A stretch of DNA of 64,000 bases. It comes from a virus. The position numbers and the translations under genes are program-made. Location of the stretch: positions 1 to 64,000 of the IMG/VR virus record IMGVR_UViG_3300025082_002887; one strand, given 5' to 3'. The notes under the pieces are model-generated. The model was not told the origin of the DNA, ran no database searches, and saw only the letters and a program-made list of their open reading frames with translations. Of the stretch, positions 22,270-41,526 are shown piece after piece (the stretch's first letter is position 1; the number at the start of each line of letters is the position of its first letter).

Positions 22270-23538
22270 ATGAGCGAAAAAATTAAGATCATGACTATTA
22301 GTGATATGCCTTTTGCACCTTCTGGTGTGGGCACACAAACAAGATATATTATTGAGAATATGTTAAAAACTGGCAAATACAAATTTGTTAGCTTAGGGGG
22401 CGCTATGAAACACGCCTCGCACAAACCGATTACAACTGAAGAATGGGGCGAAGACTGGATTACTTTTCCAGTAGATGGATACGGCACACAAGAAATTGTA
22501 AGATCAATTCTTCGACAAGAAAAACCTGATATACTTTGGTTTATGACGGACCCAAGATTTTGGGGTTGGCTGTGGGAAATTGAAAACGAAATCCGCCCAC
22601 TGGTTCCAATGGTCTATTATCATGTTTGGGACAACTACCCCTACCCAGACTATAATAAAAAGTTTTATGAATCAAATGATTTGATCGCGACAATATCTAA
22701 AGTCACTGATGACGTTGTAAGAACTGTGGCGCCCTCAGTAAAATCAATTTACTTACCGCACGCTGTCAACACAGAAGCATTCAAAAAACACGATTCAGAA
22801 AAAGTTAAATCATTCGTTATGAACAGTTTTGGCGATAAATATGATCCGGATAAATTCATTTTCTTTTGGAACAATAGAAATGCACGCCGAAAACAAAGCG
22901 GCTCATTAATTTTTTGGTTTAAAAAGTTTTTAGATAAAGTGGGACACGACAAAGCTTCTTTAATAATGCATACCGATGTTAAAGATGCTCATGGGCAAAA
23001 CCTTGAAGAGATTGTTAACCATTTAGGAATAAACAATGGAGAAGTGATGTTCTCGCAGAAAAAAATAAATCCAGAAGTATTAGCATTATTATATAATATG
23101 GCTGATTGTACAATTAATATAGCAGATGCAGAAGGGTTTGGTTTATCTACTTTAGAATCATTGGCTTGCGAAACCCCCATTATTGTCAACATGACAGGAG
23201 GCCTACAGGAACAAGTAACAGATGGCGAAGAGTGGTTTGGAATTGGGGTAGAGCCTACATCCAAAGGAATAATCGGCTCACAGGAAATATCTTGGATTTA
23301 TGAGGACCGGCTTTCTGAAAAGGTGGTTGTTGATGCGATGTTAGAAATGTATAACAAGTCTAAAGAGGAAAGATCTGAATTGGGCAGGAAAGGGCGCAAT
23401 CACGTAATGACTAACTATAATTTTGATAATTTTATTAAAAAATGGGATGAAGTGTTTACAATGGTCCACGAAGAATATGGTTCGTGGGGCACGCGAAAAC
23501 CATATGATAATCGCTGGGTTTTAAAGGAGATCGCATGA
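22270..23538 (+). CDS. Glycosyltransferase, GT4-like
   Basis: The protein has 422 residues with a GT-B layout. The N-terminal domain starts KIMTISDMPFAPSGVGTQTR with the Gly-rich loop common in GT4 enzymes. The C-terminal domain has ADCTINIADAEGFGLSTLES followed by ACETPIIVNMTGG, the E-x7-E-type nucleotide-sugar motif. No signal peptide is present, so it is cytoplasmic. It is the first gene of the glycan island and its stop overlaps the next start (ATGA). The donor sugar cannot be read from sequence. Confidence 0.8.
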   Translation: MSEKIKIMTISDMPFAPSGVGTQTRYIIENMLKTGKYKFVSLGGAMKHASHKPITTEEWGEDWITFPVDGYGTQEIVRSILRQEKPDILWFMTDPRFWGWLWEIENEIRPLVPMVYYHVWDNYPYPDYNKKFYESNDLIATISKVTDDVVRTVAPSVKSIYLPHAVNTEAFKKHDSEKVKSFVMNSFGDKYDPDKFIFFWNNRNARRKQSGSLIFWFKKFLDKVGHDKASLIMHTDVKDAHGQNLEEIVNHLGINNGEVMFSQKKINPEVLALLYNMADCTINIADAEGFGLSTLESLACETPIIVNMTGGLQEQVTDGEEWFGIGVEPTSKGIIGSQEISWIYEDRLSEKVVVDAMLEMYNKSKEERSELGRKGRNHVMTNYNFDNFIKKWDEVFTMVHEEYGSWGTRKPYDNRWVLKEIA

Positions 23539-24824
23539 AAAAGAAAATATTGGTTAGAGCACCTGTTTTAACGCGGTCAGGCTATGGGGAACATTCTCGA
23601 TTTGTCTTGCGTTCTCTTCGCACACAAGAAGACAAATTTGATATTTATGTGTTTCCTGTGAATTGGGGCAAGTGCGGCTGGATATACGACGATAATGAAG
23701 AGAGAAGGTGGCTGGACAAGCTTATTACCAAGACCGCTCATTATAACCAGGATAAAAATGCATTTTATGATATTAGTATTCAAGTCTCTATCCCAAATGA
23801 GTGGGAGCGCATAGCGCCCATTAATATTGGTGTTACCGCCGGAATTGAAACGAATCGTGTCGCCCCAGTGTGGCTCGAAAGAGCAAACATGATGGACAAA
23901 ATTATTACAATCTCTAGTCATTCAAAAAATGTATTTTTAAACACAGAATACGATGCAGTACACAAAGAAACAGGGCAAAAGCTTCAGCTACGCTGCAATA
24001 AGCCTGTAGAGGTTGTCCACTATCCCACAAAAGAATTTGAAGATCTTAATCTTAATTTAAAATTGGAAACTGATTTTAATTTCCTTGCAGTTGCCCAGTG
24101 GGGCCCCAGAAAAAATTTAGAAAACACAGTAAGATGGTTTGTTGAAGAGTTCATTGACCAGCCGGTGGGCCTTGTTGTTAAAACTTTTATGAAAGGTAAT
24201 TCCGTCATTGATCGCACACACATCGATGCGAAACTTACAAATATATTAGAAAAATATAAAAATAGAAAATGCAAAGTTTATTTATTGCACGGAGACATGA
24301 CAGATCAGGAGTTGCACTCCTTGTATAAACACCCGAAAATTAAAGCATTTGTTTCGCTTGCCCACGGAGAAGGTTTTGGACTTCCTCATTTTGAAGCCGC
24401 ATATTCAGGCCTCCCGGTGGTGGCGCCAGAATGGAGTGGGTATCTTGATTTTCTTTGTGCCCCGAGAAAGGATAAAAAAACTGGAAAAGAAAAAATTAAA
24501 CCATATTTTGCATGCGTAGACTGTGATTTACAGCCTGTACAAAAAGAGGCGCAATGGGATGGGGTTATACAAGCGGATTCAATGTGGTGTTTTCCGCAGC
24601 AAGGCTCATATAAAATGAAACTTCGCGAAGTACATAAAGATTATGGGCGATTTAAGAAACAGGCGGATTCGCTTAAAAAATGGATATTAGACAACTTTTC
24701 TGAAAAAAAACAATATGAAACATTTGCTAGCCACTTAAAAGAATATGCCCCCGTTCCGGGCGAGTTCGTATCTAACAATGAAATAGATGATTTATTTAAT
24801 AAATTAGCTAAACAGAGTGTATGA
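23535..24824 (+). CDS. Glycosyltransferase, GT4-like
   Basis: The protein has 429 residues and AAGGAG precedes the overlapping start. The N-terminus KKKILVRAPVLTRSGYGEHS resembles the donor/acceptor loop of GT4 enzymes. The C-terminal domain carries AFVSLAHGEGFGLPHFEAAY followed by SGLPVVAPEWSGYLDFL, the EGFGLP-x-E core for nucleotide-sugar binding. A Lys-rich insertion lies near residues 315-325. It is coupled on both sides by ATGA overlaps, so it is likely made together with its neighbours. Confidence 0.82.
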   Translation: MKKKILVRAPVLTRSGYGEHSRFVLRSLRTQEDKFDIYVFPVNWGKCGWIYDDNEERRWLDKLITKTAHYNQDKNAFYDISIQVSIPNEWERIAPINIGVTAGIETNRVAPVWLERANMMDKIITISSHSKNVFLNTEYDAVHKETGQKLQLRCNKPVEVVHYPTKEFEDLNLNLKLETDFNFLAVAQWGPRKNLENTVRWFVEEFIDQPVGLVVKTFMKGNSVIDRTHIDAKLTNILEKYKNRKCKVYLLHGDMTDQELHSLYKHPKIKAFVSLAHGEGFGLPHFEAAYSGLPVVAPEWSGYLDFLCAPRKDKKTGKEKIKPYFACVDCDLQPVQKEAQWDGVIQADSMWCFPQQGSYKMKLREVHKDYGRFKKQADSLKKWILDNFSEKKQYETFASHLKEYAPVPGEFVSNNEIDDLFNKLAKQSV

Positions 24825-26437
24825 TCTTTTTTGTTTGCGACATGTTTGCCGAACAGTATGAGGGCGGCGCTGAATTAACTACAGAAGCTATAATTAAAAA
24901 GGGATTATTTCCAGTAAATAAAGTTATTTGCAGCGAAGCCAATCCCGCCATTATGGAAAAGTATAAAGATGCATTTTGGATATTCGGAAATTATAGAGAC
25001 CTATCAGAAGAGTGTCTTATGTATGCTGCGAAAAATCTTCACTATAGCGTTTTGGAATATGATTATAAATTTTGTTTCTATCGCTCTATTAAGAAACACG
25101 AATTTGCGGAAGGAGCTTGTACGTGTGTAACTTCAAGAAAAGGAAAGTTAGTATCCATTTTTTTGCACAATGCAAAAGCCACCTGGTGGATGTCTCAAAA
25201 ACAGATGGAAAAATATCAGAGTCTTTATCCATTTTTGAAAAAGAGCAATAATATAGTATTAAACTCTGTGTTCTCTGATGAAACTTTAGAGTACGTTGAA
25301 ACACTAGATACAGAAAATAAAAATGATACATGGTTGATATTGGATTCTCCTTCTTGGATAAAGGGGGCAAAGGAATCCATCAATTATGCTGAAAAAAATA
25401 ATTTAAAGTATGAACTAATCTGGGATATCCCGCACTCGAAACTTTTAGATAAGCTAGCGCAATCTAAAGGGATTATTTTTTTCCCCCAAGACTCTGATAC
25501 ATGTCCGAGGATGACAGTAGAAGCCCGACTACTTGGTTGCGAAATTATATCAAATGACAATATGCAGCATAAAGACGAGCCGTGGTTTAAAAACAAAAAT
25601 TCTACCATAAAACACTTAAGGCAGAGAACAAATATTTTTTGGAAAGAGATAGAAAATATCGCTGCCAAAAATCTAAATATTCCGCAAACAATTAGCGTTA
25701 TTAGTGATCTTAAGTTTAAAATTGTAGTTCCGTTTTTCAACTGCGAAAGGTGGATCAAAAAATGTATCAACAGCATGCAAAGTCAAAAATATAAAAATTT
25801 TGAATGTTTTTTGATAGATGATGCGTCAACGGACAATTCAGCAGGCATCGTAAAAAAAGAGATTGCAAATGATTCTAGATTTAATTTAATACAGAATAGA
25901 GAGAAGAAATATGCCCTCTCCAACATTGCCGGCGCAATAGAAGAATTCAATTGCAATGATGATGATGTAATTATTTTACTTGACGGAGATGACTGGTTCG
26001 CTTCTTCGCTAACTTTGAATAAACTTTGTGAGAGCTACGGTGACAAATTAATGACTTATGGAAGTTACGTTTTTAATCCTAGCGGTATAAGAGGTCCTGA
26101 ACCATCAGAATATTCAAATGAAGTGATTAAAACAAGTTCTTTTAGAAAAGATCAATGGAGAGCCTCTCATCTAAGAACTTTTAAATATGAACTATGGAAA
26201 CGTATTGATCATAATGATTTAAAAGATGAGAATGGTGATTATTATAAAATGACTTATGATCAAGCCATAATGTTTCCCTTGTTGGAAATGGCAGGAGATC
26301 GCTCCGCCTTTATACCAGAAATTTTACACGTCTACAACAAAGACAACCCATTAAGTGTCGACAAAAATAAAGCACAAGAACAATGCGCCCTGGCTCAAAA
26401 AATTCGTTCTAAAAAGACCTATAGCAAATTAGTATGA
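24821..26437 (+). CDS. Two-domain glycosyltransferase (GT-B-like plus GT2)
   Basis: The protein has 538 residues. The first about 290 resemble the second half of a GT-B enzyme (IIFFPQDSDTCPRMTVEARL, then LGCEIISND), with an unusual N-terminal part. From residue 299 a GT2 (GT-A) domain begins: FKIVVPFFNCERWIKKCINS, FLIDDASTDNS and ILLDGDDWF (near 388), where DGDD is the metal-binding DxD. The C-terminus has DQAIMFPLLEMAG. Two catalytic modules in one chain suggest two successive sugar additions. Start and stop overlap the neighbours by four bases. Confidence 0.8.
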   Translation: MIFFVCDMFAEQYEGGAELTTEAIIKKGLFPVNKVICSEANPAIMEKYKDAFWIFGNYRDLSEECLMYAAKNLHYSVLEYDYKFCFYRSIKKHEFAEGACTCVTSRKGKLVSIFLHNAKATWWMSQKQMEKYQSLYPFLKKSNNIVLNSVFSDETLEYVETLDTENKNDTWLILDSPSWIKGAKESINYAEKNNLKYELIWDIPHSKLLDKLAQSKGIIFFPQDSDTCPRMTVEARLLGCEIISNDNMQHKDEPWFKNKNSTIKHLRQRTNIFWKEIENIAAKNLNIPQTISVISDLKFKIVVPFFNCERWIKKCINSMQSQKYKNFECFLIDDASTDNSAGIVKKEIANDSRFNLIQNREKKYALSNIAGAIEEFNCNDDDVIILLDGDDWFASSLTLNKLCESYGDKLMTYGSYVFNPSGIRGPEPSEYSNEVIKTSSFRKDQWRASHLRTFKYELWKRIDHNDLKDENGDYYKMTYDQAIMFPLLEMAGDRSAFIPEILHVYNKDNPLSVDKNKAQEQCALAQKIRSKKTYSKLV

Positions 26438-27345
26438 ATATACATTTAGAAAATGTTAATTTACAAAGCACATCCGGTCCAAATCACTTTGCTTCAAAGT
26501 TGATTAAATATTTAGACGCCACTTTTGATTACAATGAGAAACCAGGCGCGAGATTATGTTTTATAGAGTCTCATAGAAGCACGTTCGACGACATACCCTT
26601 ATTTCAAAGGCTGGATGGCATATATTTCAACACAGCACAAGATTACAAATCGCAGAATACAAACATAAAAAGAACTTATGACAATGCAGATGGTGTTATT
26701 TTCCAATCAAACTTCAATAAAGAGCTTATAACAAAGCATTTCGGAGAACATAAAAACTCCACTGTTATACATAATGGTGCTGATGTTGAGTATATTGATA
26801 AAGTTCCACCACTGGAAAATTCAAAATTAGATCAACATGAAAATGTTTGGTGTTGCGCTTCTTCCTGGAGGCCACATAAAAGATTGTCTGAGAATATAAA
26901 ATATTTTTTAGAACACTCTTCTGAAAAGGATTGCTTAGTAATTGCAGGCCCTAAAGATCAAGATATAATTAAAAATGATAGAATTTTTTATGTTGGAAAT
27001 GTAAGTATCCTTCCACTTATTTCTTTATATAAAAGATCTAAATATTTCATACATTTAGCATGGCTCGATCATTGTCCAAACGTTGTTGTAGATGCTCGCG
27101 CAGCAGATTGTCAAATTATTTGCACTTCTGCTGGAGGCACAAAAGAAATTGCTGGGCCGAATGCAATTGTGATTGAAGAAGATAAATGGGATTTTGAGCC
27201 AGTTGAATTATATAGCCCCCCCCCATTAGACTTTAGTAAAAAGATTAAAAATGATTGGGAAATAGATTATAATATGAGAGCAGTCGCAAAAAAATATAAG
27301 AATTTTCTAGAAGGTGTGATAAATGAGAAAAACAAGACATTATAA
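26434..27345 (+). CDS. Glycosyltransferase, GT4-like (short)
   Basis: The protein has 303 residues, shorter than typical GT4. It contains SNFNKELITKHF, VIHNGADVEYI (a hallmark hinge of GT4 enzymes), WCCASSWRPHKRLSENIKYF at the start of the nucleotide-binding domain, and YFIHLAWLDHCPNVVVDARA with the acidic site, followed by GGTKEIAG. The N-terminal domain is abbreviated. The stop lies inside the next gene, which overlaps by 23 bases. Confidence 0.78.
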   Translation: MNIHLENVNLQSTSGPNHFASKLIKYLDATFDYNEKPGARLCFIESHRSTFDDIPLFQRLDGIYFNTAQDYKSQNTNIKRTYDNADGVIFQSNFNKELITKHFGEHKNSTVIHNGADVEYIDKVPPLENSKLDQHENVWCCASSWRPHKRLSENIKYFLEHSSEKDCLVIAGPKDQDIIKNDRIFYVGNVSILPLISLYKRSKYFIHLAWLDHCPNVVVDARAADCQIICTSAGGTKEIAGPNAIVIEEDKWDFEPVELYSPPPLDFSKKIKNDWEIDYNMRAVAKKYKNFLEGVINEKNKTL

Positions 27346-28570
27346 CAATTATAAAGAATACCTAGATCATCAAAAAACCAAGACTCTTGACCCAGCGCGC
27401 CGAAAAAAATGGCTTAATGAAGAGTGGGAATTAAAATTAGATGGTTTTGGGCGGATGTTTGATCGACATATGGGTACTGTTTTACGGCCGGAAATGAAAG
27501 TTTTATGTGTTGGCGCCCGTACAGGTCAAGAAGTAGTCGCCCTTAGAGATAGAAATATTGATGCAGTTGGAATTGATATTGTTCCACACCCACCACACGT
27601 AATCCAAGGAGACATGCACAATCTAGATTTTCCAGATAATAGTTTTGATTTTGTCTTTTCTAATATATTTGATCATTCGTTGTATCCCGACAAGAAGATT
27701 TCAGAGATAGAAAGAGTATTGAAAACCAATGGACATGTTTTATTACAATTCCAAATTGATATTAGCCAAGATGAATATACAGAAGTTATCGTTAATCGTG
27801 TTGATCATGATGTATTGCCCTTGTTTGAAAAGTCATTTTGTATTGTTAAAGAAAATATTCCAAGAAACTTTGCAGGGATGAATTATGAAGTATTAATGAA
27901 AAAAGATGCGCTTATGTCTTCCTTGTATGATAAGGTTGGCAATGTGACAGAAATCACGTTACCAGAAGAATATAAAAAAATTTGGAATGATATAAATTTG
28001 CCAATTCAAACCAACAAAGGGCATGTACATAATATACAAGGACCCGAGCTTGATGAGTGTTTGAATAAATTATCCAAAAGGGCATATTATCTTGTCTCTA
28101 TAGCAGAACACTTCGGTGTTAAAAACATTGCTGAAGTCGGCACAGCACAAGGATGGCAATTTTACTCTTTCGCTCATTATGCACAAAAAGTTGGTGGCAA
28201 GGTTTATAGCTGCGATATTAAAGATGTTAGAAATGAACAATATAAAAATAAATATTTGAATTCATCTGTATTCTGTTTAGGGGATAGTAAACAACTAGCT
28301 AATAGATTAAAAGAAGATAATACAAAAATTGATTTATTCTATATTGATGGCGATCACATAGCAAAAGCTGTCTTAACGGACGTGATTAACCTCAGAGATT
28401 ATCAATCGGATCAATGCATATGGGTTTTTGATGATTATGATGCAAGATTTGGGTGCTTTAAAGAGATAGGAATGTTACAACAAATTAATAATAATTTTAA
28501 AGTTTATCGTGTTGGAGATGCAGCCAGCGGAAATCCAAACCATCAAGTTGTTATATTGGGGAAACTTTAA
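27323..28570 (+). CDS. Tandem SAM-methyltransferase protein
   Basis: The protein has 415 residues with two class I methyltransferase domains. The first has VLCVGARTGQEVVALRDR (near 59-76) with GIDIVPHPPHVI and DNSFDFVFSNIFDH. The second begins near residue 270 with IAEVGTAQGWQFYSFAHYAQ, then FYIDGDH and CIWVFDDYD, as in MT_24-type sugar O-methyltransferases. Both probably use S-adenosylmethionine; the second type is known from glycan and macrolide methylation. It overlaps the upstream glycosyltransferase, so methylation of the island's glycan is the natural inference. Confidence 0.75.
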   Translation: MRKTRHYNNYKEYLDHQKTKTLDPARRKKWLNEEWELKLDGFGRMFDRHMGTVLRPEMKVLCVGARTGQEVVALRDRNIDAVGIDIVPHPPHVIQGDMHNLDFPDNSFDFVFSNIFDHSLYPDKKISEIERVLKTNGHVLLQFQIDISQDEYTEVIVNRVDHDVLPLFEKSFCIVKENIPRNFAGMNYEVLMKKDALMSSLYDKVGNVTEITLPEEYKKIWNDINLPIQTNKGHVHNIQGPELDECLNKLSKRAYYLVSIAEHFGVKNIAEVGTAQGWQFYSFAHYAQKVGGKVYSCDIKDVRNEQYKNKYLNSSVFCLGDSKQLANRLKEDNTKIDLFYIDGDHIAKAVLTDVINLRDYQSDQCIWVFDDYDARFGCFKEIGMLQQINNNFKVYRVGDAASGNPNHQVVILGKL

Positions 28571-28578
28571 GGAAAAAA

Positions 28579-29820
28579 ATGTTAAAAAGTTTAGAATTTA
28601 AATCATTTGAGTTTAACTCGCGCAAAGAAACATTAATCGGCATCGACGCAACTAGAAAGTACGTAATCAAGATACAGATTATAAAAAATAAAAACAAAGC
28701 CAACAGTATAGAACAAGAATACGAAGTGATGAAACATTTAAATAAGAATGGTTGCGTAACGTGCCCAGAAGCATATGAGTTGGGGACAGTACAAAAATCA
28801 GAAATTTATCCTAAAACAAGAGAAAACAATATTTTAGATTCTATTGATAAAACAAAATTTGAATATATTATTCAAGAGTATATCCCAGACAGCGGAACAC
28901 ACAAATTAGCAGATATAGTGTTAGCCCTTATTGAACAAAAAAAATTAGGAGTTTATCAAGGGGACGTAAAGCCAGATAATGTTAGATTTGATCCGAGTAA
29001 AAATATTTGTTATTTTATTGACTACGATCAGTCTATTTTTCTCAGTGATGAACAATCTAATCTAGATAATATTAGTTTTTTAAATTTTTGTTCTGAGTAT
29101 GATAAAGCCAAGTATGGCTTCGGCAATTGGCTTCGACATTTTTCTCGGTATACAGAGCGTAATGTAACATCTTTGTTTAGTAATAAGGCTTTCAATCTTG
29201 AAGCTACTACTGTTTTTAAAACTCAAAAGACTACTAATTCTGCAAGTGGCATATACCACTCTATTGATGAAAGAGACATTTTTATTAATGGCTCAAGGGC
29301 GCTGGATGTTCGTGCAAAACTATTGGATGAATGTACTTTTGATGCAAATGAAAGAGTTTTAGATATTGGTTGTAATGCGGGGCTGCTTAGCATGTATCTT
29401 CACGATAGGGGATGCCGAACAGTTGGAGTTGATAACGATCCTCATATTGTTGTTGCATCTAAAATTATTTCAAACATTCTTGGGAAAAACATTGAGTATT
29501 TTCATCTAGATTTAGATCGCACAGAACAGGTAGAAGACTTTGATACAATAATGTTGTTTTCAGTAATTCACCACACCAGAGACCTTGTTAAGAATGCTAG
29601 AAAAATAGCAAATTCATGTTCTAGGTTTTTTTTGGAAACCAGATTAATTGAGAGCGGTAAACAACCATATGGAGATATATGGGTAGACACGACAAGATGG
29701 TCTTTTGATACTGTTGATGAATTGGTTTCTTTTTGTGAAAGTATTTTTGAAGGCTTTAAGTTGAAAACTAACTTAGGAATGGCAGATAAAGATCGTTATA
29801 TATTAGAGTTTGTTAAGTGA
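28579..29820 (+). CDS. Kinase-methyltransferase fusion (WbdD-like in concept)
   Basis: The protein has 413 residues. Residues 1-200 have a protein-kinase-like fold: RKYVIKIQII (Lys strand), EQEYEVMKHLNKNGCVTCPE, YIIQEYIPDS (hinge), YQGDVKPDNVRF (catalytic Asp near 131 and Asn) and CYFIDYDQS (DFG-equivalent Asp near 150). From about 230 a class I methyltransferase follows: VLDIGCNAGLLSMYLHDRGC (260-279), TVGVDNDPH and SVIHHTRD. E. coli O9a WbdD joins a methyltransferase and a kinase to cap O-antigen chains; here the order is reversed. The same role, a phosphate/methyl end cap on the island's glycan, is an inference. Confidence 0.75.
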   Translation: MLKSLEFKSFEFNSRKETLIGIDATRKYVIKIQIIKNKNKANSIEQEYEVMKHLNKNGCVTCPEAYELGTVQKSEIYPKTRENNILDSIDKTKFEYIIQEYIPDSGTHKLADIVLALIEQKKLGVYQGDVKPDNVRFDPSKNICYFIDYDQSIFLSDEQSNLDNISFLNFCSEYDKAKYGFGNWLRHFSRYTERNVTSLFSNKAFNLEATTVFKTQKTTNSASGIYHSIDERDIFINGSRALDVRAKLLDECTFDANERVLDIGCNAGLLSMYLHDRGCRTVGVDNDPHIVVASKIISNILGKNIEYFHLDLDRTEQVEDFDTIMLFSVIHHTRDLVKNARKIANSCSRFFLETRLIESGKQPYGDIWVDTTRWSFDTVDELVSFCESIFEGFKLKTNLGMADKDRYILEFVK

Positions 29821-30440
29821 GAGATATAGCGATTAAGAAAATATGTAGTAAACTAATTGATAGATATCATATAAATTTAGATGATAAAACTGCACTAGAT
29901 TTTTTTGCCAGAGAAGGAGATTGGCAGACGTCTTATTATGCCAATAAAATAAAGAAAATTTATGCATGGGAAATCAACCCTAGGCACGAACAAAATTTAA
30001 AACAAAATTTACCTGAAAATGCTGATGTAACCATAGGAGATTCATTTGTATTGGCAAAACAAAACAATATCTTTTTTGATATGGTTGTTTTAGATAACCC
30101 ACAGGGATGTTATGGCAAAAATAAAATGTATTGCGAGCACTTTGAAGCATTAGAGCTTTCTCTTGATTTATTAAAAAACTCCGGCGCCCTACTGATTTTT
30201 AATGTTAAGGCACAACCATTTAATTATGCGGATAACAAACAATGGCAAAAAAGACGTAATGATTTTTATTCATTAGGGGATTGTTCTTGTCTTTCTAAAG
30301 AATTTATATTTAGTTTTTATGAAAATTATTTTAACATACGAGGATATGTAACTAAGTTTGCTTTTATAGAAACCCGACCACAAGAGCCTGGATTATATGC
30401 TTTTGTAACACAAATAGTAAGGATTGCTGATGATAATTGA
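29817..30440 (+). CDS. Small SAM-methyltransferase-like protein
   Basis: The GTG start overlaps the upstream stop (GTGA). The 207 residues form a Rossmann-type domain: ALDFFAREGDWQTSYYANKI in place of the motif I Gly loop, YAWEINPRHEQNLKQNLPEN for motif II, DVTIGDSFV, FFDMVVLDNPQG and LLKNSGALLIFNVKA. The Gly-rich loop is degenerate (FFAREGD), so SAM binding is likely but not certain. It lies between the kinase-methyltransferase and a glycosyltransferase and is coupled to both. Confidence 0.6.
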   Translation: MRDIAIKKICSKLIDRYHINLDDKTALDFFAREGDWQTSYYANKIKKIYAWEINPRHEQNLKQNLPENADVTIGDSFVLAKQNNIFFDMVVLDNPQGCYGKNKMYCEHFEALELSLDLLKNSGALLIFNVKAQPFNYADNKQWQKRRNDFYSLGDCSCLSKEFIFSFYENYFNIRGYVTKFAFIETRPQEPGLYAFVTQIVRIADDN

Positions 30441-33160: not shown

Positions 33161-33861
33161 GAATAAGCATACATCAGCCGGAACATATGCCATGGCTTGG
33201 TTTTTTTAACAAAGCTATTAATTGTGATATTTTTGTGCTTTTAGATACCGTTCAGTTTGAGAAGGATTATTTTCAAAATCGAAATCAAATTATATCAAAT
33301 AATGCTAATGGTCGAGAGTGGCTCACCATCCCTGTAAAAAAAGGCAGACACACAGATTTAATTTGTGAAAAACAAACAGCATTTAATCGAAAGACCAAAA
33401 ATAAATATTTACAACAAATATATAGAGCCTATAGTTCTTATCCTTTTTATCGCGATATAATGTGCGACATTACAAGCATTATTAATTATGATGATGTATA
33501 TTTATCAAAGTTGAACATCAAGCTAATAAAATATTTTATTAATCTATTAAACATAAAATGTAAATTACAAGTATCATCTGATCTTCAGTTGAGGCCATGC
33601 GAACCAGGCGGCGTAATAAATTATAATATTTGCAAGAAGCTGGGTGCAACAACGTATTTGTCGGGAAAATCAGGTAAAAATTATTTAGACGAAACCCCGT
33701 ATTTAAAAGATAATATTTCTGTTAAATACCAAAATTTTAAACATCCAGAATATCTTCAACCTAGAGACAGTTTTATTTCTAACTTGAGTATTCTAGACTT
33801 GGTTTTTTCTTTAAGTGTTGACCAGTGTTGTGATATAATAAACGAAGCATACCAGATATAA
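33157..33861 (+). CDS. WbqC-like family protein
   Basis: GTG start overlapping the upstream stop; 234 residues. ISIHQPEHMPWLGFFNKAIN at the N-terminus is the family hallmark, with FVLLDTVQFEKDYFQNRNQI and REWLTIPVKKGRH close behind. WbqC-like proteins occur in O-antigen clusters of bacteria, next to sugar N-modifying enzymes, and are thought to act in modification of amino sugars; the exact chemistry is not established to my knowledge. The placement next to a deacetylase fits such a role. Confidence 0.8.
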   Translation: MRISIHQPEHMPWLGFFNKAINCDIFVLLDTVQFEKDYFQNRNQIISNNANGREWLTIPVKKGRHTDLICEKQTAFNRKTKNKYLQQIYRAYSSYPFYRDIMCDITSIINYDDVYLSKLNIKLIKYFINLLNIKCKLQVSSDLQLRPCEPGGVINYNICKKLGATTYLSGKSGKNYLDETPYLKDNISVKYQNFKHPEYLQPRDSFISNLSILDLVFSLSVDQCCDIINEAYQI

Positions 33862-33877
33862 ATTAACAGGAGTAAAC

Positions 33878-34537
33878 GTGTTAGATAAGAAGAAAGTGAG
33901 AGGATTAATATGTGGCCGCGGCAAATCATTAAAACACTATAATAAGCTTTTATCGACAAAATTTGATTTTACTTACCTGGTTAATGAATTTAATCGATTT
34001 ATTAGAGAAGATGAAAATTTATTGTTGTTTTTAAAAAGCAAGTCAGAAGAAGGTCACTTAACCCAACAAGTCAATATCGAAGCTGGGGGAGTTGACTCTT
34101 TTTTGTTAGAAAACATAGAAATAAAAGAAATAATAATGGCTAGGTTGGCATACAATGGTGAAAACTCAAAATGGCGCCCTCGTATAAATACAAACATTTT
34201 TAATCACTTTGGAAAAACCCTACAATTACAGCCGGATACAGTCGCTCCTTATATGAAATATATTGAAAACTCTTTAGGTATTGCAATATTGAATTTAATA
34301 GTTGACAAGGGTTGCGATGAAATATGTATTATAGGCTCGGACTTTTATGAGGCTGACTATTATCTTTCCCACCGCGGCCCTGATTGGTTTGAGGTTTCTA
34401 AGAAGAAAATACAGGATAAATTAAAAAAAGGGATTGATCAGTTGGTGGAAATATTCCCAGAGGTGAAGTTTAATATTTACACCTGTTCAACTTATAAAAA
34501 TAATTTTGCTAACTGTGATATCACAAAAATTGAGTAA
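33878..34537 (+). CDS. GT42/DUF115-like protein, possible sialyltransferase-fold enzyme
   Basis: GTG start with AACAGGAGT seven bases upstream; 219 residues. GLICGRGKSLKHYNKL and TYLVNEFNRFI at the N-terminus, and ENSLGIAILNLIVDKGCDEI with CIIGSDFYEADYYLS near the C-terminus, resemble the CMP-binding fold of family 42 sialyltransferases and related DUF115 proteins. If correct, it could transfer the nonulosonic-acid-like sugar made by the downstream NeuB-type and cytidylyltransferase genes. The match is by motif shape, so confidence is moderate. Confidence 0.5.
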   Translation: MLDKKKVRGLICGRGKSLKHYNKLLSTKFDFTYLVNEFNRFIREDENLLLFLKSKSEEGHLTQQVNIEAGGVDSFLLENIEIKEIIMARLAYNGENSKWRPRINTNIFNHFGKTLQLQPDTVAPYMKYIENSLGIAILNLIVDKGCDEICIIGSDFYEADYYLSHRGPDWFEVSKKKIQDKLKKGIDQLVEIFPEVKFNIYTCSTYKNNFANCDITKIE

Positions 34538-34545
34538 ATTTTAAT

Positions 34546-36165
34546 ATGAGCACCAAAACAGATATCGGTATGAAAATAACTTTTATTAACATGCCTCTTC
34601 GCGAATCAGCTTCGCCCAATACTCCACCCGAAGGTCCAGGTATATTAGCAGCAATTGCACGCCGGCACGGAGCAGAGTCGTATATACTTGATTTAAATGC
34701 TTATCGGATTAAAGATATCATAGCTGAAAAAAGAGGGCTCCCGAATGGAAGACACTTAACATATGATGAGGCTGAGAATTTAATAGTTCAACATATTAAA
34801 AACGTGGGCGATCAAGACATAATTGCTTTTTCTGGCAAAATAACGACTTTAAGATGGCAAGAACAAATAGCAAAAATCATTAGAAACCATCAGCCAGATG
34901 CCTTTTTAGTAAGCGGGAATGGCCTAGCTACAGAAATCAAGACAGGCCTATTCAATTGGATTCCAGAATTAGATGCAATTGGAAGATCAGAAGGGGATGA
35001 TATTATTCTTTTAATTTTGCAAGATGCAAAAACTATAAAAGAAATGGGGATTAATAAGGCTTTACGATCCGGTAGACTAAGCACATCTTACATAGGGGAA
35101 CTTAATGGAAAACATAGGTTTTGCTATGAAGGTGATAGGCCTCGTAATCTAGATGTGATCCCATATGCAGCGTGGGATTTATTAGAGTCTGATCCATATG
35201 GTCATAATGTTTTAGAAGACTACATTAAAATACCGGTGTGGGGAATTGCTGCAAATAATAGCTCTGCCACCCCTTTTACTATGGAGAGAAGCTTAACTAC
35301 AGTTAGTAGTCGTGGCTGTCCGTATGCATGCGCATTTTGCTACCGCGGCTCTCAAGGCGAGCGAAATTATGGGATGAGATCTCCAGAGCACATTGCAAAA
35401 CAAATTAAAGAGTATGTTGATAATTACAATCTAGATTTTATAGGCTTTCCAGATGATAATTTTGCAGTAGATAAAAGAAGAATGGAAAGAATCCCAGAAG
35501 TTTTTAAGGAATACGGAATTAATCATATTAGGTGGGGCACACACACTCGTATGGATGAAGCAGATGAACGAATATTCGACATGGCACGAGGTGGGTGTGT
35601 ATATATTGGCTTTGGAGCAGAATCTGCTTCTCCTCACACTTTGAAGCTCATGAAAAAGGGCGGTTTTATATTAAAAAATGGCCTAACGCCAACAAAAATT
35701 AATGGAAAAATTTATGAGTTTCCAACAACCATGGTTAACGCCGTTAAAAACAGTAAAAAAGCTGGTGTACACGCAAACTGTACTTGGATCATGGCATACC
35801 CAGGAGAAGAGCTAAAACATTTAAAAACAAGCGTAGCATTTATTTTATGGCAACAGGAATTTTGGTCGAATAGAGAATCAGTGAATAGAAAAATGTTTAC
35901 AGCAACTGCATATCCCGGGACAGAAATGTGGAAAGTGGTTCGCCCACAATTAGAAAAGCATTTTAATATCAATTTTAATGTTATGGGAGAGCCCATTTGT
36001 GATGAAAATTTTCATCAATATGTTTTAGAATTAGATGATGCTACGAAAGTTTTAAATAATAAACATGGAAATCCTGTAAATTTTGGCAGGATGCCAATGG
36101 AAACTTTCCTACAGGCTAGAGACTATGTTAATTCTGATCAAATAGAAAAGATCTTAGACATGTAG
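34546..36165 (+). CDS. B12-binding-domain radical SAM enzyme
   Basis: The protein has 539 residues. Residues 9-170 look like a cobalamin-binding Rossmann domain (ITFINMPLRESASPNTPPEG, AFSGKITTLRWQ) without the full DxHxxG motif. The radical SAM core carries CPYACAFC with Cys258, Cys262 and Cys265 for the 4Fe-4S cluster, followed by FIGFPDDNFAVD and GCVYIGFGAESAS. This class does methyl transfers or rearrangements at unreactive carbons and is found in antibiotic and polysaccharide clusters. Here it may methylate or rearrange a sugar in the glycan pathway. An internal ATG at 34570 is an alternative start. Confidence 0.85.
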   Translation: MSTKTDIGMKITFINMPLRESASPNTPPEGPGILAAIARRHGAESYILDLNAYRIKDIIAEKRGLPNGRHLTYDEAENLIVQHIKNVGDQDIIAFSGKITTLRWQEQIAKIIRNHQPDAFLVSGNGLATEIKTGLFNWIPELDAIGRSEGDDIILLILQDAKTIKEMGINKALRSGRLSTSYIGELNGKHRFCYEGDRPRNLDVIPYAAWDLLESDPYGHNVLEDYIKIPVWGIAANNSSATPFTMERSLTTVSSRGCPYACAFCYRGSQGERNYGMRSPEHIAKQIKEYVDNYNLDFIGFPDDNFAVDKRRMERIPEVFKEYGINHIRWGTHTRMDEADERIFDMARGGCVYIGFGAESASPHTLKLMKKGGFILKNGLTPTKINGKIYEFPTTMVNAVKNSKKAGVHANCTWIMAYPGEELKHLKTSVAFILWQQEFWSNRESVNRKMFTATAYPGTEMWKVVRPQLEKHFNINFNVMGEPICDENFHQYVLELDDATKVLNNKHGNPVNFGRMPMETFLQARDYVNSDQIEKILDM

Positions 36166-36172
36166 GGAATAT

Positions 36173-36940
36173 ATGTCAAAAGCTATATTTATAACAGTTC
36201 GATCCGGATCATCCCGATTACCAAAAAAAGCGTTATTAAAAATTAATGATGCTGCAACAATAGAACATTTAATAAATCATGTAAGAAAATCACAAAAAGC
36301 TGATAAAATTGTTGTTTGTACTACTGTCTCTAAAAATGACGACGAAATTTGTGCTTTGGCAGAGAAGAGCGGAGTTAATTTTTTTAGAGGGAGCATTAAA
36401 GATAAATTAGATAGATGTTTAAAAGCTGCGTTGCATTATAATATAGAATATTTTGTTAATGTTGATGGAGATGATATCTTTTGCGAGCCGGAATTAATTG
36501 ATTTGGCTTTTGATCAGTATGAAGCTGACAATCATGATTTCATAAAGTCAAATGAAAAAGACCTTGTTTGCGGAGCTTTCACTTTTGGTATTAAAACAGA
36601 GGCGCTAAAAGAAATCTGTCGTATTAAAGATACTGATGATACTGAAGCTGCGTGGCTTTTATTTTCTGAAATTTCTTCTATTAAGACGTCAATGCTGGAC
36701 AATATACCCGAGATATATTGCCGTCCAGAAATAAGAGCAACCCTGGATTACTCAGAAGATCTAGAATTTTTTAAAGCTATAATTGATCATTTTCACGACC
36801 GAAACAAAAAACAATTTAGCTTGAGAGATATTATATCTTTTATAGATTCGAATCCTGACGTTCTGTTAATCAACAGACACAGGCATAAAGATTATTTAGA
36901 AAATCAAAAAAAATTATTAAAAAATATAGGAGTCCAATAG
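36173..36940 (+). CDS. SpsF/NeuA-type cytidylyltransferase
   Basis: The protein has 255 residues. IFITVRSGSSRLPKKALLKI is the nucleotide-binding signature of the CMP-sugar (CTP_transf_3/SpsF) family; NVDGDDIFCEPELID supplies the metal-binding Asp pair. These enzymes activate nonulosonic acids or similar sugars with CTP. Two genes downstream lies a NeuB/SpsE-type synthase, the usual partner. The gene ends one base before the aminotransferase start. Confidence 0.8.
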   Translation: MSKAIFITVRSGSSRLPKKALLKINDAATIEHLINHVRKSQKADKIVVCTTVSKNDDEICALAEKSGVNFFRGSIKDKLDRCLKAALHYNIEYFVNVDGDDIFCEPELIDLAFDQYEADNHDFIKSNEKDLVCGAFTFGIKTEALKEICRIKDTDDTEAAWLLFSEISSIKTSMLDNIPEIYCRPEIRATLDYSEDLEFFKAIIDHFHDRNKKQFSLRDIISFIDSNPDVLLINRHRHKDYLENQKKLLKNIGVQ

Positions 36941-37957
36941 ATGTCCGAATTAAAAGAAAGAGTTACATATCATTCCGGTGAATGGGTACCGGAATCTAAA
37001 GCTGCGATTCATATATATGATTCTCAGTTTATGTATGGAGATGGTGTTTTTGAGATGGTTAGAACTTTTAAACATAAGTTCTTTTTGTTGGAAGAGCATA
37101 TCGACAGGCTTTATAGAAGCATGAAGTACATGCATATACCATTTAATAAAACAAAACAAGAAGCAATTGATTTATGTTTAGAATCATTTGATAGAAACAA
37201 GGCCCACTTTCCGGAAGGAGAAGAGTGTCGTGTGATGATTAATGTTTCTAGGGGTCCACTAGGCATATATAAAGAAGTATTTGAGCTATCCAAAAGTCAA
37301 GCTTGGAATGAACCAACTTGGATTGTGAATGTTTGGCCTCTTAGTAAAACTGCTGGAATATTAGGGCATTTTTATGAGACAGGCGCTAATGCGGTGATTC
37401 CATCACAAAGACAAATCCCCTCGCGCCTGTTGGAAAACAAAGTTAAAAATAGGAGTAGATTTCATTACCAAATGGCAAATATACAGGTTTCTTCTTTTGG
37501 CAAGGATGCTATGCCGTTGTTATTAGATGAGGATGGCTTTATAACTGAGAGCACAGGCGCAAACTTTTTAATGATAAAAGATGGAAAGTTGATTGCTCCG
37601 GAGCTAAGAAACATGCTCAGAGGCTCTAGTATGATGTATATTTTGGAAGTTTTAGCTCCTCAAATTGGTTTAGAAGTGGTTCATAAAAACTTTGAACCTT
37701 ATGATGTTATGAATTGTGATGAGGCTATGTTCACTGGAACTTTTGTTAATTTGCTCCCTTGTAATAGATTAAACGGAATATATCTTAATGCGGACATAAA
37801 AGAAAATCCAATTGGGCCGGTCACACAAAGAATTTGTGACGCATGGTCAAAAAATGTTGGGATTAATTTTATAGGACAAATAAAAGATTGGTCTAAAAAT
37901 GTTTCTTCAGTGGGCATATCAAGTGCAATGTTGGGGTCTGGAGGTGAAAATGAGTAA
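36941..37957 (+). CDS. PLP-dependent class IV aminotransferase
   Basis: The protein has 338 residues; GGAG lies upstream of the ATG. HIYDSQFMYGDGVFEMVRTF is the family entry motif of branched-chain aminotransferase/aminodeoxychorismate lyase enzymes. LENKVKNRSRFHYQMANIQV gives the PLP-binding Lys (near residue 166), and FITESTGANFLMIKDGKL supplies the Glu and substrate-binding segment. It might aminate a keto-sugar, or supply an amino acid or lyase reaction for decorating the glycan; class IV is unusual where DegT-type enzymes are the norm. Confidence 0.83.
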   Translation: MSELKERVTYHSGEWVPESKAAIHIYDSQFMYGDGVFEMVRTFKHKFFLLEEHIDRLYRSMKYMHIPFNKTKQEAIDLCLESFDRNKAHFPEGEECRVMINVSRGPLGIYKEVFELSKSQAWNEPTWIVNVWPLSKTAGILGHFYETGANAVIPSQRQIPSRLLENKVKNRSRFHYQMANIQVSSFGKDAMPLLLDEDGFITESTGANFLMIKDGKLIAPELRNMLRGSSMMYILEVLAPQIGLEVVHKNFEPYDVMNCDEAMFTGTFVNLLPCNRLNGIYLNADIKENPIGPVTQRICDAWSKNVGINFIGQIKDWSKNVSSVGISSAMLGSGGENE

Positions 37958-38645
37958 GAGGATAATTATAACCGGCTCAGAGGGGCTTTTAGGAAAAGAG
38001 ATAAGTAGATATTTAGAATCTACTGGCCACTCTGTGATCGGGTGTGATTTACAGCTTGGTCACGATTTAACAGATGAAGAATTTGTAAAAGATTTTTTTA
38101 AGAAAAATAAAGCAGATTGTTTAGCAAATTTGTATGCTATTAATCCACATGTGAATTCAGAGGATTACTCTACAAACATGTTTGATATAACTTTAGATTC
38201 TTTAAATTCGTATTTACAGGTTAACCTTTTGAGTCTTTTTTCTGTTTGTAGAGAATATGCAAGAAATAATAAAAATGGCTCTATAATTAATTTTTCTTCG
38301 ACATATGGAATTGTATCGCCCAATCCTGCGCTTTATGAAGAGGGAAAAGAAAAACATATTGGCTATTGCGTTTCTAAATCTGGTGTGATACAATTAACTA
38401 GATATTTGGCTGTACACTTAGCACCAAATATCAGGGTAAACTGCGTAGCACCAGGAGGCGTTACTTTTGAACCCACTAACGAACATAGTAAAAAGTTTAT
38501 TGAACAATACAGAGAGAAAACACCTATGAAAAGAATGATGAATGTTGATGAATTAAATGGAATTATCGAATATTTATGTTCTGACAAATCCTCATATGCT
38601 ACTGGGACTACCTTTCATATTGACGGGGGCTGGACCATATGGTAG
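37950..38645 (+). CDS. Short-chain dehydrogenase/reductase
   Basis: I chose the ATG at 37950, with GGAGGTG just upstream, over a longer frame starting at 37899. The protein of 231 residues starts MSKRIIITGSEGLLGKEISR (Gly-rich NAD(P) site), has NFSSTYGIVSPN (catalytic Ser) and YCVSKSGVIQLTRYLAVHLA (Tyr-x3-Lys), then RVNCVAPGGV. It probably reduces or oxidises a sugar intermediate. It overlaps its neighbours by a few bases on both sides. Confidence 0.85.
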   Translation: MSKRIIITGSEGLLGKEISRYLESTGHSVIGCDLQLGHDLTDEEFVKDFFKKNKADCLANLYAINPHVNSEDYSTNMFDITLDSLNSYLQVNLLSLFSVCREYARNNKNGSIINFSSTYGIVSPNPALYEEGKEKHIGYCVSKSGVIQLTRYLAVHLAPNIRVNCVAPGGVTFEPTNEHSKKFIEQYREKTPMKRMMNVDELNGIIEYLCSDKSSYATGTTFHIDGGWTIW

Positions 38646-39490
38646 ATTTTAGAAATTTAAATAAACATTATTTTATTGGTGAGATCGGCATTAATCATAA
38701 CGGCGATTTGCAAATAGCAAAAAAATTAATTGATGCGGTGCATGCATGTAACTGGGATTGCGCCAAATTCCAAAAAAGAAATCCCGATGTCTGCGTGCCA
38801 GAACATCAAAAAAACGTCTTAAGGGAAACACCATGGGGCACTTTAAAATATATTGACTATAAATACAGAGTTGAATTTGGTAAAGAAAAATATGATTATA
38901 TAAATTCTTATTGTGGCGAAAAACCAGTCGATTGGTCAGCTTCTGTTTGGGATTTAAATAGTTTAGATTTTCTGTTACAATATAATCTGCCTTTTATTAA
39001 AATCCCTTCTGCCATGGTGGCTAATGAGGTTTTAGTGGCAGAAACTGCAAAGTCTGGTAAACCTATTATAATGTCAACTGGTATGTGCAACATAGAAGAA
39101 GTGGACAGTGCTGTAAATAATGTATTGAAATATAACGATAATCTAGTTTTAATGCACACAAACTCTAGTTACCCGACACCCAAAGAGGAACTAAACTTAA
39201 GTTTAATACCTTTCTTAAAGGAACGTTACAATTGCACAGTAGGATACTCGGGGCATGAAGAGGATCTAGAACCAACAGTGATCGCTGCAGTACTGGGTGC
39301 TAAAGTTATTGAAAGGCATATAACATTGTCGCACGATATGTGGGGCACAGATCAAAAATCAAGTTTAGAAGTATTGGCAATGGATATATTACAAAAGAGA
39401 ATAAAAGATATCGACAAGATTGTGGGAAAACCAATCAAGGAAGTTACAAATAGTGAAGTCAATATTAGAAAGAAGTTGAGGGGATATTAA
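38639..39490 (+). CDS. neuB: NeuB/SpsE-type nonulosonic acid synthase
   Basis: The protein has 283 residues. YFIGEIGINHNGDLQIAKKL is the family signature, followed by CAKFQKRNPDVCVPEHQK, FIKIPSAMVAN, PIIMSTGMCN and TVGYSGHEEDLEPTVIAAVL, GAKVIERHITL (Mn-binding His positions). These enzymes condense phosphoenolpyruvate with a hexosamine-type sugar to make a nine-carbon acid. The usual C-terminal antifreeze-like SAF domain of about 60 residues is absent, so the protein ends soon after the barrel. It strongly suggests that the island makes a sialic-acid-like sugar. Confidence 0.85.
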   Translation: MVDFRNLNKHYFIGEIGINHNGDLQIAKKLIDAVHACNWDCAKFQKRNPDVCVPEHQKNVLRETPWGTLKYIDYKYRVEFGKEKYDYINSYCGEKPVDWSASVWDLNSLDFLLQYNLPFIKIPSAMVANEVLVAETAKSGKPIIMSTGMCNIEEVDSAVNNVLKYNDNLVLMHTNSSYPTPKEELNLSLIPFLKERYNCTVGYSGHEEDLEPTVIAAVLGAKVIERHITLSHDMWGTDQKSSLEVLAMDILQKRIKDIDKIVGKPIKEVTNSEVNIRKKLRGY

Positions 39491-39515
39491 TGAAAAGTAG
39501 TTATGATGTGATTAA

Positions 39516-39827
39516 ATGGTAATTTATGTAGATATTGATGAAACAATTTGTATAACACCAGGAGATGCGCATACGGCAAGAAATTATGAAAATGCAAAAC
39601 CTCTATTAAAAAACATTGAAAAATGTAATAAACTATATGAAGATGGTAATACAATTGTATATTGGACCGCCAGAGGGTGTACAACTGGTATAGATTGGTT
39701 TGACGTTACAGAAAAGCAATTAAATGAATGGGATGTTAAATATCACGATCTAAAATTGGGAAAGCCATTTTATGATTTATTTATTGATGATAAAGCAATA
39801 AATTCAAAAGATTTTTTTAAAAATTAG
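39516..39827 (+). CDS. HAD-superfamily phosphatase (small)
   Basis: The protein has 103 residues. VIYVDIDETIC gives the DxDxT nucleophile motif, IVYWTARGC motif II, and PFYDLFIDDKAINS the final Asp pair. The size and motif pattern resemble capsule-biosynthesis HAD phosphatases. It could remove the 9-phosphate from a nonulosonic acid or another sugar phosphate. A 25-base gap separates it from the synthase. Confidence 0.78.
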   Translation: MVIYVDIDETICITPGDAHTARNYENAKPLLKNIEKCNKLYEDGNTIVYWTARGCTTGIDWFDVTEKQLNEWDVKYHDLKLGKPFYDLFIDDKAINSKDFFKN

Positions 39828-39838
39828 GAGGAAAATAG

Positions 39839-40723
39839 ATGGCTAAATGCTTAGTTACGGGTCATAAAGGATATATTGGCTCAAAAGTATATGCAAGATT
39901 AAAGGAATTAGGACACGAGGTACAAGGAATAGATCTTTTTGATGGTTATGATATATTAAAAGATTTAAAAGAATATAATGAACCAATGCGTGGTCGTTTC
40001 CATCCACATTATCATGAGTTCAAGCCAGAATATATTTTTCATTTAGCCTGCATCCCGCGTGTTGCTTATAGTGTTGAAAACCCTGCGCGTACAATGAAAA
40101 ACAATGTTCTAGCTACGACATATATCCTTAATTTTGCTAGAAAAAGAAATGTAAAGCGCGTTATTTATTCTGGATCGTCTTCAGTCGTTGGTAATGGATC
40201 CGGCCCGAGCAGCCCATATGGATTACAAAAATTAATTTCAGAGATGGAATGTAAATTGTATTCTGATTTATATGGATTAGATACTGTTTCTTTACGTTAC
40301 TTTAACGTATATTCTCCAGATCAAGAGGCAAGCGGCCCGTATGCAACGGCAATCGCAAATTGGATGCAATATATTAGAGATGGCAAAACTCCATATATAA
40401 CTGGTAACGGGGAACAAAAACGCGATATGGCACATTTAAATGATATAGTGTCGGCAAATATTTTTGCAATGGAACATAAAAAGGATTTCAATGGACAACA
40501 TTTTGATGTTGGGACAGGTAGCAATATTTCTTTAAATGAAATTAAGAATATTGTTTTAGATTATTTTCCAAATATAAAATTTGATTACACTGAAGAAAGA
40601 AAGGGCGATGTACTACACACACAAGCAAATATATTGCCTTTAAAAGAGTTAGGATGGCACGCTAAAGTGAACATCGTTGATGGCATTAACGAATGCTTTA
40701 AAATATTAAAAGAAAGGAGTTAG
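39839..40723 (+). CDS. NAD-dependent epimerase/dehydratase (extended SDR)
   Basis: AGGAGG lies upstream of the ATG; 294 residues. CLVTGHKGYIGSKVYARLKE is the NAD-binding site; IYSGSSSVVGNG, SPYGLQKLISE (Tyr-x3-Lys) and LRYFNVYSPDQEAS are typical of UDP-glucose 4-epimerase-like enzymes; GNGEQKRDMAHLNDIVSANI closes the substrate site. It probably interconverts or dehydrates a nucleotide sugar feeding the glycan, and is the last gene of the island. Confidence 0.85.
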   Translation: MAKCLVTGHKGYIGSKVYARLKELGHEVQGIDLFDGYDILKDLKEYNEPMRGRFHPHYHEFKPEYIFHLACIPRVAYSVENPARTMKNNVLATTYILNFARKRNVKRVIYSGSSSVVGNGSGPSSPYGLQKLISEMECKLYSDLYGLDTVSLRYFNVYSPDQEASGPYATAIANWMQYIRDGKTPYITGNGEQKRDMAHLNDIVSANIFAMEHKKDFNGQHFDVGTGSNISLNEIKNIVLDYFPNIKFDYTEERKGDVLHTQANILPLKELGWHAKVNIVDGINECFKILKERS

Positions 40724-41523: not shown

Positions 41524-41526
41524 TGT

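Follow-up and report, generated by a model that had tools for sequence, protein, structure and literature searches.

We analyzed a window comprising the first 64 kb (64,000 nucleotides [nt]) of the linear, 84.7-kb virus record IMGVR_UViG_3300025082_002887 (record label G000), focusing on the genes at positions 22,270 to 40,723, which a preliminary description of this DNA had read as a phage glycan island for a sialic-acid-like, methylated polysaccharide. Marine T4-like phages have, at a fixed place, a slot whose content varies in a serotype-like manner, and this island is its payload here. A check of the open reading frames (ORFs) found 19 genes, all open and all on the + strand, with overlaps at 11 of 19 junctions (the last being that to the following gene) and a biggest gap of 25 nt, in agreement with the nearly gapless, mostly overlapping arrangement described before. 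Gene families were assigned by searches of Pfam, PHROGs, and NCBIfam, the profile searches of each gene that had been proposed as a check, and most of the earlier assignments were confirmed, including the WbqC-like protein, the PIG-L deacetylase, the cytidylyltransferase, the class IV aminotransferase, the SDR enzyme, the NeuB synthase, the HAD phosphatase, and the methyltransferases.

The left border of the slot is a PD-(D/E)XK (Cas4-like) nuclease (21484 to 22260, + strand; PF12705, 7.5e-18; PHROG exonuclease), which occupies the same place in relatives. It is followed by two conserved slot genes for glycosyltransferases, GT4a (g01, 22270 to 23538; PF00534) and GT4b (g02, 23535 to 24824; PF00534), the second being next after the first in relatives as well. 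Then come a glycosyltransferase with a C-terminal GT2 domain (g03, 24821 to 26437; PF00535, 1e-19), a GT4-type glycosyltransferase (g04, 26434 to 27345; PF00534, 1e-6), a double methyltransferase (g05, 27323 to 28570; PF08241 and PF13578), a methyltransferase whose N-terminal half may be kinase-like (g06, 28579 to 29820; PF08242, 1e-9), a possible methyltransferase with no Pfam, PHROG, or NCBIfam match (g07, 29817 to 30440), a GT1/GT4-type glycosyltransferase (g08, 30424 to 31557; PF00534 at 24.3 bits, slightly below the cut-off of 26.4), and a probable glycosyltransferase (g09, 31557 to 32525) with a weak match to PHROG 7162 (1.8e-5) and an unusable structure model (predicted local distance difference test score [pLDDT] of 38). 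About six glycosyltransferases had been counted previously; at least five (g01, g02, g03, g04, and g08) have family support, and g09 would be a weakly matched sixth. Likewise, the supposed kinase-methyltransferase g06 is recognizable as a methyltransferase, while its kinase half scores 20.7 bits against APH, below the cut-off of 23.2.

The middle of the island encodes a PIG-L de-N-acetylase (g10, 32522 to 33160; PF02585; motifs HLDDFE and HTDH), a WbqC-like protein (g11, 33157 to 33861; PF08889, 3.9e-59), and an alpha/beta protein resembling GT42 by motifs only (g12, 33878 to 34537), whose motifs GRG-S, N-F, and GxDFY are kept across 8 phage homologues. Its earlier labeling as GT42-like is unsupported: the protein has no Pfam match and no PDB profile match, PF06002 was not found in the record, and a Foldseek search of PDB with the AlphaFold model (pLDDT 82) gave no fold match at E <= 0.001. 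Sister phages do carry PF06002 over the cut-off. The next gene encodes a radical S-adenosylmethionine (SAM) enzyme (g13, 34546 to 36165; PF04055, 1e-18; CxxxCxxC motif CPYACAFC) with a homologue in 4 relatives (72 to 75% identical). The radical SAM part of the former B12-radical SAM assignment holds, and the enzyme is probably B12 dependent, with a B12 domain scoring 20.4 bits, below the cut-off of 32.1.

Four core genes follow. The first encodes a cytidylyltransferase for cytidine monophosphate (CMP)-sugars (g14, 36173 to 36940; PF02348, 9e-21; KdsB/PseF in NCBIfam; match to 6oew), the second a class IV aminotransferase (g15, 36941 to 37957; PF01063, 3e-36), which is replaced at the same position by a DegT enzyme in three relatives (L006, L011, and L015), and the third an SDR oxidoreductase (g16, 37950 to 38645; PF13561, 2e-34; YCVSK motif), which probably starts at 37,950 and not at 37,899. 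The fourth encodes a short NeuB-family synthase of 283 amino acids (g17, 38639 to 39490; PF03102, 3e-63; NCBIfam NeuB, 2e-64), in which no SAF domain was matched in Pfam and for which the PDB matches stop short of the C-terminal domain. Residues E15, K43, H206, H227, and D238 of this protein are invariant across 22 sequences, and we take them, with a phmmer match in support, to correspond to the active site of Neisseria NeuB. The island ends with a slot gene for a HAD phosphatase (g18, 39516 to 39827; DIDET motif), assigned by PHROGs and NCBIfam only (PHROG 1238, 3e-26; EcbF/BcbF, 1e-6), and an NAD-dependent nucleotide-sugar epimerase/dehydratase (g19, 39839 to 40723; PF01370, 2e-44). A simple hydropathy scan predicted membrane segments in none of the 19 island proteins, and the only PADLOC matches to defense systems were to domains of a generic kind (methyltransferase, radical SAM, and Cas4-like). 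The right border (40726 to 42509, + strand; PHROG 234; syntenic in relatives) consists of three small conserved genes, gp55 (late sigma factor; 41,527 to 42,222, + strand), and f101.

The genes flanking the island are those of a phage, as indicated by family matches for PhoH, the PD-(D/E)XK nuclease, and the late sigma factor gp55 and, judged by eye from translations, by gp25, gp6, RuvC, primase, and SbcD-like proteins; the distance from the end of PhoH to the start of g01 is 2.1 kb. NeuB relatives with 45 to 100% identity were found on 15 IMG/VR contigs, and most of the contigs that include the borders have the NeuB gene in the same slot, with the order PhoH, a 230-amino-acid protein, PD-(D/E)XK nuclease, GT4a, GT4b, variable payload, three small genes (f82-f84-f100), and gp55. 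The two conserved GT4s stand at the left end of this slot and the HAD usually near its right end. The T4-like nature of these phages is seen in gp55 in the window itself and in the T4-type major capsid protein gp23 (PF07068) of the relatives G004 and G007 (203 and 186 kb). Flavobacterium phage immuto 2-6A and Microcystis phage Mel-JY01, both of them cultured, likewise have the order nuclease, GT4a, GT4b, payload. An artificial joining of phage DNA to a bacterial polysaccharide locus, which the preliminary description had named as a way for its reading to fail, has a close to negligible probability and is already refuted, because the same borders recur in many separate contigs; in addition, one contig (G001, which may stem from the same population) has an identical junction over 20,849 bases, and the GC content of the island (34.5%) matches that of the left flank (35.5%).

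To describe how far the payload follows the phage that carries it, we defined backbone identity as the mean over five border proteins and payload as 17 genes. The relatives G016 and G017, the nearest by this measure, have 86 to 87% backbone identity, yet share only 1/17 and 0/17 payload genes, whereas G004 (54% backbone identity) and G007 (63%) share 7 of the 17, at 56 to 79% identity, namely, the radical SAM enzyme, cytidylyltransferase, aminotransferase, SDR, NeuB, HAD, and epimerase. More distant relatives in general (51 to 63% backbone identity) share 3 to 7 of the 17, including the cytidylyltransferase-aminotransferase-SDR-NeuB core, whose order is conserved across them. This contrast, and with it the correlation between backbone identity and shared payload (rho of −0.80), is partly an artifact of recruiting some relatives by NeuB and others by GT4a, and only the discordance is used here. 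It shows that the payload moves independently of the backbone. Sister slots contain, for example, epimerases, GDP-mannose dehydratase-like proteins, UDP-sugar (UDP-glucose) dehydrogenases, a dTDP-sugar isomerase family (dTDP-rhamnose-type epimerase), sulfotransferases, and further glycosyltransferases. Such free variation between close phages is what would be expected if acquired bacterial polysaccharide genes merely filled the head as passive cargo, the “stuffer DNA” alternative raised in PMC3037559. We consider this very improbable, given that the 19 genes are open and overlapping, that the core order persists at 51 to 63% backbone identity, that the catalytic residues are invariant, and that ratios of nonsynonymous to synonymous substitution rates (dN/dS) are near zero in one close pair: between the near-identical G004 and G005, most slot genes have a dN/dS of 0 to 0.06, and one sulfotransferase has been swapped for a 40%-identical version. 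Purifying selection thus acts on the island genes in this pair, the only close one compared, and the genes are not degraded, which the preliminary description had named as an outcome that would refute its reading.

Genes of this kind are widespread. A profile scan of IMG/VR with the NeuB as query retrieved at least 581 stretches encoding relatives, some of which may be other NeuB subfamilies, and a scan with GT4a retrieved 523 stretches with relatives. The nuclease-GT4a-GT4b block recurs in the surroundings of the 80 best NeuB loci, where a second NeuB is common among the contigs. A quick NeuB tree with long branches, used only to split short from canonical NeuBs, places the short NeuBs (∼283 amino acids, mostly with a TPWG motif) apart from the canonical forms of 325 to 359 amino acids and from fused forms of ∼487 amino acids. 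The latter, NeuB-SAF-cupin fusions of ∼487 to 503 amino acids (L091, 10465 to 11976, and about ten other viral loci), constitute a separate viral clade. Seven bacterial short NeuBs, from Acidobacteria, Alphaproteobacteria, and clostridia, are placed among the viral ones in the tree, so that genes have moved between phages and bacteria. One bacterial contig (L028) keeps the core order cytidylyltransferase-aminotransferase-SDR-NeuB, and the acidobacterial contig L021 has this core except for the SDR. A Clostridium locus (L026, 8161 to 13284) encodes a Maf-type glycosyltransferase, a short NeuB, a cytidylyltransferase-HAD fusion, and a glycerophosphotransferase, and offers a cultivable-type bacterial counterpart for learning what the short NeuB makes. 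When we searched 50,697 phage records by tblastn with this NeuB and this cytidylyltransferase, no cyanophage isolate was matched, and the sole match in Kyanoviridae was a single-cell sequence, Marine virus AG-345-L05.

What the pathway makes can be approached from the chemistry of the enzyme families. The synthase would catalyze a condensation of phosphoenolpyruvate and either an aldose or an aldose phosphate, giving a 2-keto-3-deoxy sugar acid, the SDR and the aminotransferase would put in an amino group, and the cytidylyltransferase would yield the CMP-sugar. The earlier proposal took NeuB, cytidylyltransferase, and HAD together as pointing to a CMP-activated nine-carbon acid. The linkage of the first two stands, since the cytidylyltransferase is linked to NeuB in most close relatives and, by Pfam, also in L091 and L099. 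The HAD no longer counts as evidence for a nonulosonic acid: it is present in sister phages without NeuB and is therefore a slot gene not specific to this sugar, and we dropped the idea of a KdsC-like partner of NeuB. A nine-carbon product is only a candidate, given that the synthase is a short NeuB lacking SAF and that no hydrolyzing 2-epimerase was found (below), and an eight-carbon product is conceivable because the top-scoring NCBIfam models for g14 are KdsB. The canonical nonulosonic route comprises a dehydratase, aminotransferase, acetyltransferase, hydrolase, synthase, and CMP-synthetase (PMC7439481). The NeuC/LegG hydrolyzing 2-epimerase family (PF02350) was absent from all 8 records searched, which are fragments and include G000, and present in 11/14 controls (PseG was not searched for), so that a nonulosonic route here, if real, would differ from the canonical one. 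Among sister phages, some NeuBs do have SAF, and PF06002 (CST-I, GT42) exceeds its curated cut-off in 5/46 viral records; L091 combines two NeuBs, a cytidylyltransferase, and such a CST-I match, which supports the notion that phages of this kind make and use CMP-sugars of this class.

The proposal that we favor, to which we give roughly even credence, is that the slot pathway builds a lineage-specific glycan of the nonulosonic-acid type on the phage's own proteins in the cytosol. In this scheme, cytosolic glycosyltransferases would build a chain on phage proteins from the CMP-sugar's residue and from further sugars; trimming of the chain by the methyltransferases, PIG-L, and the radical SAM enzyme would result in a lineage-specific glycan coat. 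A more specific form of it is possible but rather doubtful: a short, SAF-less NeuB may make an ulosonic acid, perhaps not a nine-carbon one, by a route akin to the synthesis of amino-3-deoxy-D-manno-octulosonic acid (amino-Kdo), i.e., condense, oxidize, aminate, and CMP-activate, in a dedicated, fast-exchanged slot that gives each lineage its own nonulosonic-acid-type virion coat. The chemistry, the order of the steps, the carbon number, and the virion acceptor are all inferred; what the data demonstrate is that the genes are present and intact, that they are syntenic, that the payload is exchanged under purifying selection, and that a known flippase and a T4-type base hydroxymethylase are absent from the records searched. 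Several points weigh against the favored proposal. The virion acceptor is deduced from genes; a flippase and a ligase could be supplied by the host; canonical nonulosonic steps (2-epimerase/hydrolase and N-acetyltransferase) are missing or were not found; the HAD occurs independently of NeuB; and no CMP-sugar transferase was recognized in the window, with g12 unsupported as a GT42.

The preliminary description had left two roles side by side, glycosylation of the virion and remodeling of the host surface, and the evidence on membrane proteins bears on the choice between them. O-units are built on the cytosolic face of the membrane by soluble glycosyltransferases, and soluble enzymes of the kind seen here would by themselves also fit an activity in which the island enzymes remodel the host O-antigen, capsule, or flagellar glycan through the host's carrier, flippase, and ligase, blocking superinfection or grazers. 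The sister payloads, with their epimerases, GDP-mannose dehydratase, UDP-glucose dehydrogenase, dTDP-rhamnose-type epimerase, and sulfotransferases, do resemble an O-antigen locus, and such a role was proposed for the lipopolysaccharide (LPS) genes of P-SSM2 (PMC2984593). However, the Wzx-family flippase (PF01943) was found in 0/46 viral records versus 13/14 control genomes, and ORFs of at least 150 amino acids with at least 4 hydrophobic segments amount to 3/1,214 around 80 viral NeuB genes versus 11/123 around bacterial ones, all three viral cases having 150 to 166 amino acids. Outside the slot, G004 and G007 encode one protein of 892 and one of 996 amino acids with 9 to 11 hydrophobic segments and no Pfam match, which may be tape-measure-like proteins. 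Membrane proteins (GtrA/GtrC) are a normal part of the seroconversion modules that temperate phages carry, and a T4-like phage with no sign of lysogeny would have little time in which to exchange a surface that is already complete. Since a host flippase could serve, remodeling of the host surface keeps about a quarter of the probability. A third destination for the sugars would be the phage DNA, which would thereby be hypermodified to withstand restriction. T4-like phages can glycosylate their DNA, and PMC12619734 cites glycosyltransferases encoded by phages as hypermodifying DNA. The thymidylate-synthase-type hydroxymethylase (dCMP/dUMP; PF00303), however, is absent from 6 of 6 records (G000 being an 84.7-kb fragment) and present in 9/14 controls; the Tet/JBP dioxygenase (PF12851) is absent from 5/6 records in a search without a positive control, with a subthreshold match in the distant W02; cyanomyoviruses are reported to lack DNA glycosylation (PMC2984593); and a 17-gene payload far exceeds the needs of base modification. 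We therefore hold this destination to be very unlikely. Taken together, the lack of a flippase, the near lack of multipass proteins, and the lack of a T4-type hydroxymethylase favor a cytosolic acceptor, the simplest being the structural proteins of the phage, and thus virion glycosylation over host remodeling or DNA modification.

Other features of the window concern the transcription of the island and its surroundings. A perfect sigma-70-type promoter match (TTGACA-17-TATAAT; 20157 to 20185, + strand) lies directly behind PhoH and ahead of the genes that run into the island; the window contains 2 such perfect matches versus 0.06 expected, the second one inside PhoH. An 11/12 match stands at the same place in G012, and since four other relatives (G004, G005, G007, and G008) have none, its role as the promoter of an operon is only suggestive. 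The window has 16 copies of the late-promoter-like motif TATAAATA, versus 8.4 expected, and just 3 of them fall within the island. To the left of the slot, we observed a complete single-piece transfer-messenger RNA gene (15215 to 15587; Rfam, 110.9 bits; tag ANDNVEFDYALAA). The only clear reverse-strand pair near the slot (17521 to 18731, − strand) is placed between an NAD-binding protein and PhoH and encodes a secreted trypsin-like protein (AAHVC and GSSGS) and a small secreted protein. A 1,106-amino-acid protein (10324 to 13644) has a nucleotidyltransferase-like stretch (YPGRFQPMGQHHAEV), ∼13 lysines near its C terminus, and no Pfam match. Unrelated proteins with near-identical N termini are encoded at 1256 to 5645 and at 14432 to 14728 of the window and at 2093 to 3002 of L003, with MKLLFENWRKFL/I in three neighbors and MKLTKSKLKxIIKEE in others, possibly as a leader for targeting to the head or virion. 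To the right, the gene after gp55 and f101 (42513 to 46529) varies entirely in both size (378 to 1,338 amino acids) and content among relatives, as seen at this place in L005, L007, L010, L011, and L015. Its product often resembles a peptidoglycan-active enzyme (weakly matching Peptidase_M74 in the window and, judged by eye, VanY-, lytic transglycosylase-, or NlpC-like elsewhere) and may be a baseplate hub whose lysin domains can be exchanged.

Large polysaccharide clusters are known from marine T4-like phages as “LPS clusters,” and whether those of P-SSM2, S-SM2, and S-SSM7 work or merely fill was left open (PMC3037559 and PMC2984593). Our data argue that such clusters do work, in hundreds of environmental phages, on a question open at least since 2010 (PMC3037559), and the earlier claim of a phage-borne glycan pathway is upheld, in that a complete-looking pathway occupies a slot in phage contigs. 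The definition of the slot makes its content predictable, swappable, and testable in cultured phages, and its loci also supply unusual enzymes of sugar synthesis. Should virions bear these glycans, phages that are otherwise near identical would differ in their particle surfaces, which would matter for adsorption, host defense, grazing on viruses, and phage classification. The slot, its exchange, its NeuB core, and the evidence for selection appear to be new within the searches that were possible; in the literature searched, which included few subscription journals, no tailed phage was reported to have a nonulosonic pathway.

The window resembles the LPS clusters in its position: these are defined as large polysaccharide clusters of T4-like phages in the neighborhood of phoH or hli03 (PMC3037559), and that of P-SSM2 lies near phoH. 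It differs in having a fixed slot, from PD-(D/E)XK-GT4a-GT4b to gp55, with a core of NeuB and cytidylyltransferase and with purifying selection between two close relatives, the P-SSM2 cluster being compared by its description only. In immuto 2-6A and Mel-JY01, whose left part we compared, the nuclease, GT4a, and GT4b are likewise followed by glycosyltransferases and methyltransferases, in immuto 2-6A also by aminotransferases and an epimerase, but their GT4a is only 32 to 34% identical, no NeuB was found, and the payload is smaller. The sps genes for CMP-legionaminic acid in Bacillus subtilis (PMC7439481) are alike in comprising a NeuB-family synthase (SpsE), a cytidylyltransferase (SpsF), and an aminotransferase (SpsC), whereas in the window no SpsD-type acetyltransferase or SpsG-type hydrolase was recognized, the synthase lacks SAF, and the aminotransferase is of class IV. 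Virion glycosylation in mycobacteriophages, as reportedly described by Freeman and colleagues in 2023, involves only a few glycosyltransferases, in contrast to the whole sugar-synthesis pathway encoded here. In that system, phage-encoded glycosyltransferases decorate the capsid and tail tube, according to the passages of PMC12619734 that cite the work. The Maf N-terminal domain (PF20157) was not found in 9 phage records, in a search without a positive control, and the MptE-like domain (PF01973) was found only in sister slots. Maf enzymes put nonulosonic acids on clostridial flagellin in the cytosol (PMC11339370), and the clostridial system is thus comparable in its cytosolic transfer to protein and in the Clostridium locus that encodes the same short NeuB beside a Maf-type enzyme.

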